From Maricaulis maris (GTDB lineage Bacteria; Pseudomonadota; Alphaproteobacteria; Caulobacterales; Maricaulaceae), in assembly GCF_036322705.1 (NCBI RefSeq), contig NZ_AP027270.1, positions 1,923,501-1,987,500 of the forward strand: DNA of 64,000 bases, given 5' to 3'. Position 1 is the stretch's first letter. Each line of letters begins with the position of its first letter. Position numbers and translations under genes: made by a program. The notes below the pieces were generated by a model. That model was not told where the DNA came from, made no database searches, and worked only from the letters and a program-made list of their open reading frames with translations. Shown one piece after another: positions 12,345-44,123 of this stretch.

Positions 12345-12459
12345 CGCTTGTCAGCCAGCAGGCCGTCTCCGGTTCTTCAGGTCAAGGGTGAAACCGCGAA
12401 GCGGCGGCTTTGCCGCCCTTGACCTGAAGAACCGGAGACGGCGATCTCTCGGCAAGCGG
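12345..12459 (+). repeat. Intergenic palindromic element, copy A
   Basis: This 115-bp element has a perfect 26-bp inverted repeat (12363-12388 and 12416-12441, arm CCGTCTCCGGTTCTTCAG continued by GTCAAGGG) around a 27-nt G/C-rich core that can itself fold. The left end is CGCTTGTCAGCCAGC and the right end is CTCGGCAAGCGG. Related copies lie at 26920, 28014, 30076 and 37160. No protein is encoded. It fills most of the 356-bp gap between the FAD-dehydrogenase gene and yaaA. Confidence 0.9.
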
Positions 12460-13638: not shown

Positions 13639-13874
13639 CATGTTAGCACAAATACACGCAATACGTGTAAATTGACCCATTCAAAACTATGCTCAAGCTT
13701 TCGCCTTAATGGGCGAGGGGTACCGCAAAGCGGTGGAGTGGGTGACCGACGGTCAGTGCAGGAACGCTGCGCGTTTCACCCCTTCCGACCCTGGGCTGCG
13801 ACCCGGCCCACCTTCCTTATCAAGGGGAAGGACCTGGATGCCTCCCTTGAGGCCGAAAAGCACCGCTCGCGTTG

Positions 13875-13904
13875 AGGTCCCAGGGACAAGCCGGGGGATG
13901 ATGG
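13875..13904 (-). repeat. Single degenerate arm of the 30-bp-arm repeat
   Basis: Thirty bases closely match the right arm of the repeats at 29916-30014 and 43647-43773 (AGGTCC, then GACAAGCCGGGGGATGA), with substitutions. No matching left arm is nearby, so it is a decayed fragment. Confidence 0.6.
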
Positions 13905-13928
13905 TGGAGGGTTTTCGGAAATCCGCAC

Positions 13929-26919: not shown

Positions 26920-27033
26920 CCCTTGCCGAGAGAAAGCCGTATCCGGTTCTTGAGCTCAAGGGTGAAACCGCGAAGCGGCGGCTGCGCCGCCCTTGACCTC
27001 AAGAACCGGTTACGGCCCGCTGGCTGACAAGGG
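26920..27033 (-). repeat. Intergenic palindromic element, copy B
   Basis: This copy is in reverse orientation to copy A. The arms 26937-26962 and 26990-27015 match at 24 of 26 positions, and the core shares the GTGAAACCGCGAAGCGGCGG segment with copy A. The outer ends are the complements of CTCGGCAAGG on the left and CTTGTCAGCCAGCGGG on the right. Confidence 0.88.
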
Positions 27034-28013: not shown

Positions 28014-28055
28014 GCTTGCCGAAAGGGAGCCGGATACGACCCGCTGGCTGACAAG
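28014..28055 (-). repeat. Core-less copy of the palindromic element (copy E)
   Basis: GCTTGCCGAAAGGGAGCCGG at the left and CCCGCTGGCTGACAAG at the right are the two outer ends of the 115-bp element, joined through GATACGA. The whole 26-bp inverted repeat and its core are missing. Orientation is as in copy B. Confidence 0.7.
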
Positions 28056-29915: not shown

Positions 29916-30014
29916 CCGTCATCCACGGGTCAGCGCGCCGCGCTGATCCGGGGGACCTCGTCACGGAGGGCCACCGAATAGGTGAGGTCCCCCGGACAAG
30001 CCGGGGGATGACGG
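29916..30014 (+). repeat. 30-bp-arm repeat, intergenic copy
   Basis: The right arm (29985-30014) is identical to the right arm of the copy inside nadB. The left arm begins CCGTCATCC and ends CCGGGGGACCTCG but is interrupted by other sequence (GGGTCAGCGCGCCGCGCTGA). The spacer reads in frame with an encoded PRTSRGM motif, as in nadB. Confidence 0.8.
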
Positions 30015-30075
30015 TATGAGGAACGAAGAAAAGGTCGTGAAATAGGCGAGCGTGGGCGCGCAACCCTCCATACAT

Positions 30076-30190
30076 CGCTTGTCAGCCAGCGGGCCGTCTC
30101 CGCTTGTTCAGGTCAAAGGCCCGAAGGGCCGCGTCGCGGGTCTACCCCTTGACCTGAACAAGCGGAGACGGCGAACTCCCGGCAATCGGT
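30076..30190 (+). repeat. Intergenic palindromic element, copy C
   Basis: The ends are CGCTTGTCAGCCAGCGGG and CCCGGCAATCGG. Arms 30094-30116 and 30149-30171 are a perfect 23-bp inverted repeat. The core differs from copies A and B, so the arms have been conserved, or co-varied, while the core changed. Confidence 0.88.
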
Positions 30191-37159: not shown

Positions 37160-37273
37160 CGCTTGTCAGCCAGCAGGCCGTATCCGCTTCTTCAGCTCAA
37201 GGGTGAAACCGCAACGCGGCGCGTACGCGCCCTTGACCTGAAGAAGCGGATACGGCGACGTCTCGGCAAGCGG
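37160..37273 (+). repeat. Intergenic palindromic element, copy D
   Basis: The ends are CGCTTGTCAGCCAGC and CTCGGCAAGCGG as in copy A. Arms 37178-37203 and 37230-37255 match at 25 of 26 positions. The arm bases CCGTATCCGCTTCTTCAG differ from copy A at two sites, each change being matched in the opposite arm. Confidence 0.9.
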
Positions 37274-42464: not shown

Positions 42465-44123
42465 ATGACCCGCCCCATCCTCATCTGTGGCGCCGGCATT
42501 GCCGGGCTCTGGGCGGCGCTGAAGCTCGCCCCGCGCAAGGTGGTCCTGCTCACCGGTGCGCCGCTGGGTGAAGGGGCGGCGTCCGGCTGGGCGCAGGGCG
42601 GGGTGTCGGCGGCTCTGGCGGCGGACGACAGCGCGGCGCTGCATGCCCGCGACACAATCGCGGCCGGCGCCGGTCTGGTCGATCGCGATGCGGCGCTGGC
42701 CCTGGCCGAAGGCGCGGCAGCGGAAGTCGCGGCGCTGGCCACACTCGGCGCACCGTTCGAGCGCGAGGGGGAGACCTGGTCGCTGTCCCGCGAGGCGGCG
42801 CATTCACAGCCTCGCGTCGCCCGCGTGAAGGGCGATGGCGCCGGTGCCGCGATCATGGCGGCGCTGATTGCGGCCGTGCGGGCTGCGGACCACATCGAGA
42901 TCCGCGATGGCTGGAAAGCGGTCTCGCTGCTGGGCGATGCGAGCGCCTGTACTGGCGCCATTGCGAAAGGGCCTCACGGCGAGATCGAACCCGTCGAAGC
43001 CGACGCGACCCTGCTCGCCATGGGCGGCGCCGGCGGCCTGTTTGCCCTGACCACCACGCCGGCCATCGCCCAGGGCCAGGCCATGGCGATGGCGGCGCGT
43101 CTGGGCGCGGTGATCCGCGATCCGGAATTCGTGCAATTCCACCCCACCGCCCTCAATGCCGGCCTCGATCCGGCGCCCCTGTGCACCGAGGCCCTGCGCG
43201 GCGAGGGCGCGACCCTGGTCGACAAGACCGGCCATCGCTTCATGAAGCCCATCCACAGCGACGCCGAACTCGCCCCGCGCGATGTCGTCGCCCGGGCGGT
43301 GCACCGCCAGAATGCCGGCGGCAAGGGCGCCTATCTCGATTGCCGCGCCGCCGTCGGCGAGACCTTCCCGGACCGTTTCCCGGCCGTCTTCGCAGCCTGC
43401 CAGCGCGCCGGGATTGACCCGCGCACCGCGCCCATCCCCGTTGCCCCGACCGCGCACTATCATATGGGCGGTGTCGCCACCGATATTGATGGCCGCACCT
43501 CCGTGCCCGGCCTCTATGCGATCGGCGAATGCGCCGCGACCGGCCTGCACGGCGCCAACCGCCTGGCTTCGAATTCGCTGGCTGAAGGTCTGGTCAGTGC
43601 GGCGCGGGTGGCGCATGTGCTCGGGTCCTCGCGGGACCAAAACCAACCGTCATCCCCCGGCTTGTCCGGGGGACCTCAACTGGCCAGCCGCGTGGATGGG
43701 CTGGACAACGGGGTCAGCGCGAAACACTCGAAATTCATCGACGAGGTCCCCCGGACAAGCCGGGGGATGACGGTGGACAATCAACCGCTTCTCCTTGCGT
43801 CTGCCCCCACCCTCCCGCCCCTCGCCCTCACCCGTCTGCGTCAGGCGATGTCACGGCATTGCGGGGTGGAACGCTCGGCTTCGGGCTTGAGCGAGCTCGC
43901 GGCGCTGATCGACATGATGCGGGCCGAGCATGGCGAGGCCGATCCGCTGGTCGCGGCGCGCTTCATTGTCGAAGGCGCCCTGCGTCGCCGCGAGAGCCGG
44001 GGTGGCCATTTCCGCAGCGATTGCCCACAAACCCACACCGACGCGCGCCACACCGAATTGCGCCAGGCCGATCTGGCCGCCCGCATCCCGCAACCGGCCG
44101 CCCTCGCCGGCCCGGCCGAATAG
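42465..44123 (+). CDS. nadB: L-aspartate oxidase with an inserted repeat element
   Basis: The 552-residue flavoenzyme oxidises L-aspartate to iminoaspartate for NadA. FAD binding is seen in ILICGAGIAGLWAALKLAP, the catalytic region in VQFHPTAL, AHYHMGGVATDIDGRTS and GECAATGLHGANRLASNSL, and the C-terminal helical domain in HCGVERSASGL and RRRESRGGHFRSD. Between these, residues about 394-437 are encoded by a 30-bp-arm repeat (43647-43773) and add SSPGLSGG and PRTSRGM. The frame stays open and all catalytic parts remain, so the enzyme is probably active. The insert sits at the junction of FAD and C-terminal domains. Confidence 0.93.
   Translation: MTRPILICGAGIAGLWAALKLAPRKVVLLTGAPLGEGAASGWAQGGVSAALAADDSAALHARDTIAAGAGLVDRDAALALAEGAAAEVAALATLGAPFEREGETWSLSREAAHSQPRVARVKGDGAGAAIMAALIAAVRAADHIEIRDGWKAVSLLGDASACTGAIAKGPHGEIEPVEADATLLAMGGAGGLFALTTTPAIAQGQAMAMAARLGAVIRDPEFVQFHPTALNAGLDPAPLCTEALRGEGATLVDKTGHRFMKPIHSDAELAPRDVVARAVHRQNAGGKGAYLDCRAAVGETFPDRFPAVFAACQRAGIDPRTAPIPVAPTAHYHMGGVATDIDGRTSVPGLYAIGECAATGLHGANRLASNSLAEGLVSAARVAHVLGSSRDQNQPSSPGLSGGPQLASRVDGLDNGVSAKHSKFIDEVPRTSRGMTVDNQPLLLASAPTLPPLALTRLRQAMSRHCGVERSASGLSELAALIDMMRAEHGEADPLVAARFIVEGALRRRESRGGHFRSDCPQTHTDARHTELRQADLAARIPQPAALAGPAE
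43647..43773 (+). repeat. 30-bp-arm repeat inside nadB
   Basis: The arms 43647-43676 and 43744-43773 form a perfect 30-bp inverted repeat (CCGTCATCCCCCGGCTTG continued by TCCGGGGGACCT), separated by 67 nt. The right arm is identical to that of the intergenic copy at 29985-30014. It is translated in frame as part of nadB. Confidence 0.93.

Follow-up and report, generated by a model that had tools for sequence, protein, structure and literature searches.

Palindromic repeats that lie in frame within genes are usually treated as scattered, one-off events. The nadB gene of the genome analyzed here, which was placed in the genus Maricaulis by its named relatives, carries a long inverted repeat within its reading frame, and this raises the question of what the repeat is, how it came to lie in a metabolic enzyme and whether it is an isolated case. 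We use the term window for the whole 64-kb stretch of DNA that was analyzed. Within it, nadB (42465-44123, forward strand) codes for an intact L-aspartate oxidase of 552 aa and is located between two genes that, on our own reading of the ORFs, we take to be nadA and nadC. The ORF contained no internal stop, and its product scored 615.9 bits against the NCBIfam L-aspartate oxidase profile (cut-off 528), in agreement with the original prediction that the catalytic part of the enzyme was intact. The sole further match to NadB in this genome, a 33% match over residues 3-522, is presumably SdhA on our reading. A pseudogene replaced by another copy, or any second nadB, was ruled out by the intact frame and the single copy.

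The inserted element (43646-43774, forward strand, codons 394-437) is 129 bp long, with 32-bp arms that are complementary at 32 of 32 positions and 65 nt between them (spacer, 43678-43742, forward strand). The original prediction had recognized a real in-frame element but gave it 127 bp and a 30-bp inverted repeat, slightly less than its full extent. Because each of the 32-bp arms forms a small hairpin of its own (REP), the element is a REP dimer, here a head-to-head homodimer of CGTC-type REPs: the left REP occupies 43646-43677 on the forward strand, and the right REP, its exact complement, is inverted and occupies 43743-43774 on the reverse strand. CGTC tags were present at both outer ends of the element. 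The REP stem (ATCCCCCGG/CCGGGGGAC) has 8 pairs, with T-A in the second position and an A-C mismatch in the first, and both REPs have the 5-nt loop CTTGT. As RNA, the element gave a fold of -96.7 kcal/mol (z -11.0), and none of 200 shuffled sequences was equally stable. No direct duplication adjoining 43646 or 43774 was seen by eye in the sequence of this genome, and no Rfam family reached its gathering score in the 64-kb window, so that the element did not match a known RNA family.

The frame of the insert is open, homology is intact on both sides of it, and NadB outside the linker aligned throughout with relatives. In an AlphaFold2 model based on 29 sequences (mean pLDDT 82.3, pTM 0.84), the helices that flank the loop, residues 370-392 and 452-466, were confident. 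Residues 396-443 had pLDDT below 50 and lacked secondary structure, which suggests that the REP-encoded part is a disordered interdomain loop. An earlier model based on 16 sequences was too poor (mean pLDDT 49.6) and was set aside.

The arm defines a family of dispersed repeats, designated family a. As predicted, the right arm was identical to an intergenic copy, in all 32 bases of 29984-30015, and the copy concerned is a 99-nt heterodimer (29916-30014, reverse strand), one half of which matches the nadB arm. A single family-a REP is present in another intergenic region of the window (13871-13905, reverse strand). Since the arm is common to these places, a TSRGM peptide is encoded at all three (13886, 29996 and 43755, and also at 43665 on the reverse strand), which accounts for the earlier remark that the RTSRGM stretch recurs in other repeat-derived frames. 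When the 3.14-Mb genome was searched with the arm pattern, allowing up to 3 mismatches, 13 matches at 12 places were found, with none for the reversed pattern; in this census, a count that had been proposed as a check, the nadB copy alone was intragenic.

The usual family-a copy is a head-to-head dimer of 98-99 nt (94-96 nt in G011), in which one REP has the CTTGT loop and its partner a longer hairpin loop, with approximately 25 nt between them. The partner REP is long-looped in most genomic copies. The nadB copy represents a rarer form with two plain REPs and a long spacer, which was also detected in nadB of two other Maricaulis genomes (G015 and G006) and at G018:C3:382553, a place that reads as intergenic. 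The layout with tags outside is shared by the nadB element and the usual 98-99-nt copies. Among the arms of the fetched loci, the CGTC tag was present in 39 of 42 and the tail CTC in 34 of 42, and none had the tail CCA.

E. litoralis and S. alaskensis are free-living alphaproteobacteria. A survey of the CGTC class (Di Nocera, De Gregorio, Rocco 2013, PMC3733652) described intragenic members of it, as well as REPs within genes of other alphaproteobacteria; REP-bearing genes of these two species were named there, with the REP class of each gene left unstated in that passage. According to the same survey, the class comprises four families and lacks a dedicated transposase; its members have a stem of 8-9 bp with almost invariable complementary A and T in the first and second positions, a loop of 4-5 nt (other lengths in some species) and an unpaired three-nt tail, mostly CCA. 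Family a resembles this description (PMC3733652) in its CGTC tag, stem length, 5-nt loop and predominance of head-to-head dimers, as well as in its alphaproteobacterial host (the class occurs mostly in this group), some intragenic copies and the lack of a flanking transposase gene, as judged from the Y1_Tnp genes. It differs from the class as described there in its tail, mostly CTC, in the A-C first stem pair, and in the finding that several repeat families occupy one linker across the genus. The original prediction considered such an insertion notable in a free-living alphaproteobacterium; the observation stands, but its novelty was overstated, as intragenic REPs outside Rickettsia are in print in the sections cited (PMC3733652). 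Given that intragenic CGTC REPs had already been published, the nadB copy belongs to a known kind.

In REPIN/RAYT systems, the unit is an inverted REP pair, and such a pair is likewise the unit of the nadB element. Unlike in those systems, no RAYT flanked by a family-a REP was found in this genome, in which two Y1_Tnp genes were examined. Each of these genes lies beside inverted repeats other than family a, and for this Y1_Tnp class no match to the 28-nt arm at up to 6 mismatches was found within 12 kb around either gene. A RAYT was therefore rejected as mobilizer of family a, as neither gene has a cognate REP alongside, in keeping with the account of CGTC REPs in PMC3733652, which gives them no dedicated transposase. 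Each of the two Y1 genes, whose products have 238 and 221 aa, has an inverted repeat of its own (L228, 5910-5989; L229, 6710-6798), and it is possible that they code for REP-associated transposases of another repeat family. We infer transposition and an enzyme behind it, and assign the palindrome no particular route of movement.

To place the insert in its genus, NadB was searched in all 19 Maricaulis genomes and 42 further genomes, and linker DNA was read in 19 of 19 Maricaulis and in 11 of the further genomes, each from a different genus. The named samples, as taken, were M. maris DSM 4734 (G018), M. salignorans DSM 16077 (G003), M. parjimensis (G001) and M. alexandrii (G011); most others were MAGs. 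In G024, one of the 42, the sole match (33%, residues 5-526) is likely SdhA, and no NadB orthologue was seen. All 19 Maricaulis nadB genes were free of internal stops, two of them (G006 and G016) being split across two contigs. The linker had 71 aa in the genome under study (G000) and 27-71 aa across Maricaulis. It was 27-37 aa long in the five Maricaulis that have no element, and 25-28 aa long in 11 NadB proteins, each from another genus. The comparison of 71 aa with 25-37 aa implies that some 34-46 residues were added in G000 (codons 394-437). Thus, the earlier placement of the insert between the FAD and C-terminal domains held, and its figure of about 45 residues lies within a range rather than being a fixed value. 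The proposed alignment with homologues also showed the segment to be absent, in 11 of 11 other genera and in 5 of 19 Maricaulis.

The added linker DNA was not a single sequence. Three kinds were recognized: a, present in nadB of G000, G015 and G006; b, with ends CCTCGCCCTTGATGGGCGAGG and CCTTCCCCATCAAGGGGAAGG; and c, with ends CTTCCCCCG..CGGGGGAAG and CCTCCCCCG..CGGGGGAGG. Dispersed copies of the a element, of one b element and of each of two c elements were sought in five genomes each, and linkers were then compared with copies from elsewhere, a match being defined as E<=1e-3. Linkers of 14 of the 19 Maricaulis matched dispersed repeats (a in 3, b in 6 and c in 5, two of these partial). Family b was found in the linkers of G008, G011, G014, G016, G017 and partly G012, and family c in those of G003, G005, G010, G018 and partly G002. 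At the same threshold, no dispersed-repeat match was found for the linkers of G001, G013, G004, G007 and G009 or for any of the 11 linkers of other genera. As a control, 300 stretches (170 nt each) taken from genes of the window were compared with the dispersed copies, and none matched.

Copies were labeled by the query that found them, and G010:C208 was left out of one of the repeat sets used for linker comparison. The boundary between b and c is soft, because the two have parts in common and certain places, such as G015:C1 near 631400, came up with either query; the linkers of G018 and G005 matched best b-labeled copies in one comparison and c-labeled copies in another. Part of the family alternation may therefore reflect one mosaic family with query-dependent labels. 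Family a is distinct from b/c. Copy counts are lower bounds, since some searches scored 40 of up to 56 candidates. A search for palindromic places of the c type found only one. Within the window, an intergenic family-b element (13704-13832, forward strand), 80% identical to the nadB copy of G016, is located next to the single a REP. Tandem arrays of three family-b copies were observed at G000:C1:2287404-2288198 (348-nt spacing) and at G018:C3:420440-421259 (approximately 343-nt spacing). Several short NadB matches lying mostly within REP-encoded residues (G013:C5:19022-19279, G013:C5:12182-12358, G013:C17:168209-168352 and G008:C43:911-1036) probably represent further family-a copies of these genomes, at places other than nadB.

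The distribution of these kinds does not simply follow the phylogeny. In a nadB tree built without the linker, G000 (a) grouped with G014 (b) at a node value of 78, while G015 (a) paired with G018 (c) at 100 and this pair joined G016 (b) at 100, with 100 for the two groups together. The nadC tree, covering 14 Maricaulis and 2 outgroup genomes without G016, separated G000 and G014 from the rest (95) and again paired G015 with G018 (93); G006, whose nadB is split over contigs, was in neither tree. On the NadB tree, the four states (a, b, c and none) required at least 8 changes, or 6 if b and c were merged. Shuffled labels required 10.4 changes on average and reached 8 or fewer in 46 of 1000 cases, which indicates inheritance and also much change. 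The 1150 nt preceding nadB also gave a tree, which was set aside because it seems to mix different genes; in it, G002, G005, G011, G013 and G014 were on very long branches, so that gene order before nadB seems variable within the genus.

The linker of G000 itself also carries signs of an older occupant. Just before the a element, a stretch (43622-43640, forward strand, bounds approximate) that probably remains from the left hairpin of a former family-b copy matched nadB of G016 with a 15-nt gap; 2 of 5000 shuffles scored as well, and family b occupies this position in nadB of both G014 and G016. The shortened b hairpin ahead of the a element suggests that the a element went into, or took the place of, a b copy that was there before. 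The G000 and G015 spacers (27 of 65 bases identical, a value reached by 30 of 5000 shuffles) are of equal length and somewhat alike, and would fit one old a insertion rather than two, against the trees. The G000 and G015 arms are identical while fourfold sites of the two genes differ at 111 of 288, and thus a recent insertion or gene conversion is needed.

The identity and dispersion of the element, the open frame, its absence from other genera and the presence of several families at one site are directly observed. We consider it probable that the nadB element is a tolerated selfish REP dimer in a linker that is a recurrent, repeatedly re-occupied site. According to this model, a non-autonomous palindromic repeat, a head-to-head CGTC-type REP dimer, entered the interdomain linker; the insert kept the frame, so that nadB stayed open, and the sole change to NadB would be some 40 additional, disordered residues that loop out where the FAD part joins the C-terminal helical domain. 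The palindrome would be visible in nadB because the loop tolerates the insert and the frame stayed open. We infer neutrality, the insert being a tolerated selfish repeat rather than a functional module. The different repeats that several related marine bacteria have at one joint suggest that small repeats land there recurrently and without harm: two clearly distinct types at the least (a and b/c), or three when b and c are counted separately, would have entered it and decayed or replaced each other, and in G000 the a element probably went into an older b copy. The original prediction was incomplete in this respect, as the different families at this linker across the genus are invisible from one sequence, and the REP dimer had not been recognized as such.

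The main rival, which we regard as rather unlikely, is a single ancient insertion in the Maricaulis ancestor, with the families arising by hairpin exchange, that is, gene conversion or recombination with dispersed copies. The equal 65-nt spacers of G000 and G015 with their weak likeness, the arms that are identical despite 39% fourfold divergence, and a weak local likeness of the G000 spacer to b elements, seen in 2 of 24 comparisons (7 and 6 of 300 shuffles, uncorrected), are all compatible with this history, and presence or absence alone takes only 4 changes on the tree. However, the b copies in nadB of G014 and G016 align near full length to dispersed b copies, and therefore whole elements, beyond their ends, differ from a copies; in addition, the 5 of 19 Maricaulis without any element would need losses. 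The variation between species also bears on the idea that the 32-bp hairpin is kept as a regulator of the nadA-nadB-nadC message through pausing, RNase III processing or protection. Although the fold is very stable (z -11) and lies within a likely operon, its stability is a consequence of the inverted-repeat structure, ribosomes open a translated hairpin, elements vary between species, and 5 of 19 Maricaulis show no element and two have part only; this function is very improbable.

Recruitment of the loop as a functional part of the enzyme, for example for partner binding or as a flexible tether, could be suspected from its in-frame retention in many species and from decayed yet kept elements in the E2 linker discussed below, but no conserved residues were evident by eye among the a, b and c inserts and the loop is predicted to be disordered, so that we regard this role as very unlikely. 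No point was found in favor of an assembly artefact or pseudogene, whose probability is practically negligible: the genome is a single contig, the same family occupies the same site in G015 and G006, and nadB has no stop in any of the 19 genomes (being split over contigs in G006 and G016).

We also asked how often genes serve as insertion sites. The codon model used for classification made 424 of 450 frame calls correctly at 150 nt, as tested on its own training genes only; it replaced a first model that was poor (238 of 380 calls right). Among 131 copy places found in eight genomes, eight were flagged in frame, and one antisense case was dropped, leaving seven in-frame intragenic copies: 3 in nadB, 2 in the lipoyl linker of pyruvate dehydrogenase E2 (G003 and G015), 1 in thiC and 1 in dnaE2, all gene names being our own reading of the proteins. 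G018:C1:537416 and G015:C1:1718324 were flagged in frame and left uncounted, as their open frame is antisense to the flanking coding frame, and G011:C10:175075, near a contig end, was left unclassified. The nadB copies of G011 and G018 are outside the 131-place census; those of G018 and G005 were included in a c-type follow-up. In G000, 1 of 25 found places was in frame in a gene, and none of 4 further c-type places was. Among the places examined, nadB alone was hit by families a and b. In M. salignorans (G003), family-c elements lie in frame in the genes reading as thiC (L135, G003:C10:54781) and dnaE2 (L141, G003:C35:41072).

A second recurrent site seems to exist in the E2 linker. E2 was compared in 16 of 19 Maricaulis (G006 and G012 were partial, and G008 had no orthologue), and 6 of the 16 linkers matched dispersed copies (G003, G015, G010, G014 and G018, with G013 just at the threshold). 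The E2 linker of G000 (L237, G000:C1:1493040-1494377) missed the threshold with E 0.004, aligns with that of G018 and looks like a decayed family-c element. We tentatively raise the possibility, to which we give somewhat less than an even chance, that a repeat already present in frame serves as a landing pad for others, so that new families keep replacing older ones at one NadB codon stretch; E2 would be another site of this kind, its old elements turning by decay into ordinary linker, perhaps in G000 as well. The causes we can offer for this are equally tentative: either the linker is freed from constraint, or repeats preferentially enter, or recombine with, other repeats. If this were true, selfish palindromes of different kinds would repeatedly rewrite the NadB linker of Maricaulis.

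The classical case of in-frame palindromes is the RPE of Rickettsia, as outlined in a passage of PMC10969869, and RPE-4 and RPE-6 are listed as CGTC REPs in the part of PMC3733652 on these elements. The nadB element is similar to RPE in being a palindrome in frame in a metabolic gene (Ogata 2000, 2002, as cited in passages of PMC10969869 and PMC3733652), and the original comparison with Rickettsia was apt, given a dispersed element and an open frame. Differences include the free-living Maricaulis host, few intragenic copies per genome and the recurrence of different families at one orthologous site; the likeness to RPE runs through the CGTC class and was drawn by description. In their two-hairpin layout, families b and c resemble the rhizobial mosaic repeats (RIME).

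The surprising part is the recurrence at the NadB linker, which is an unusually clear recurrent site. Among the cases in PMC3733652 are REP-bearing DnaE2 genes and recB, in which two Xanthomonas carry different REPs at roughly one site. No report of several repeat families at one linker across a genus was found in the literature searched, which left most subscription journals outside. With occupied, partial and empty states and different families in related species, insertion, replacement and decay of selfish DNA can be traced in a metabolic enzyme. The series, from a single orthologous linker of a genus that is free-living and culturable, also bears on the movement of CGTC REPs, for which no transposase is known, and on the conversion of repeats into protein linkers.

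A further palindromic repeat, GCCGT[AC]TCCG[GC]TT[CG]TT[CG]AG..., was observed in the window at 12362-12442, 26936-27016, 30093-30172 and 37177-37256. These four copies in 64 kb, together with a partial one near 28027, do not overlap any codon-model gene, and this repeat would be very abundant if the density held genome-wide.
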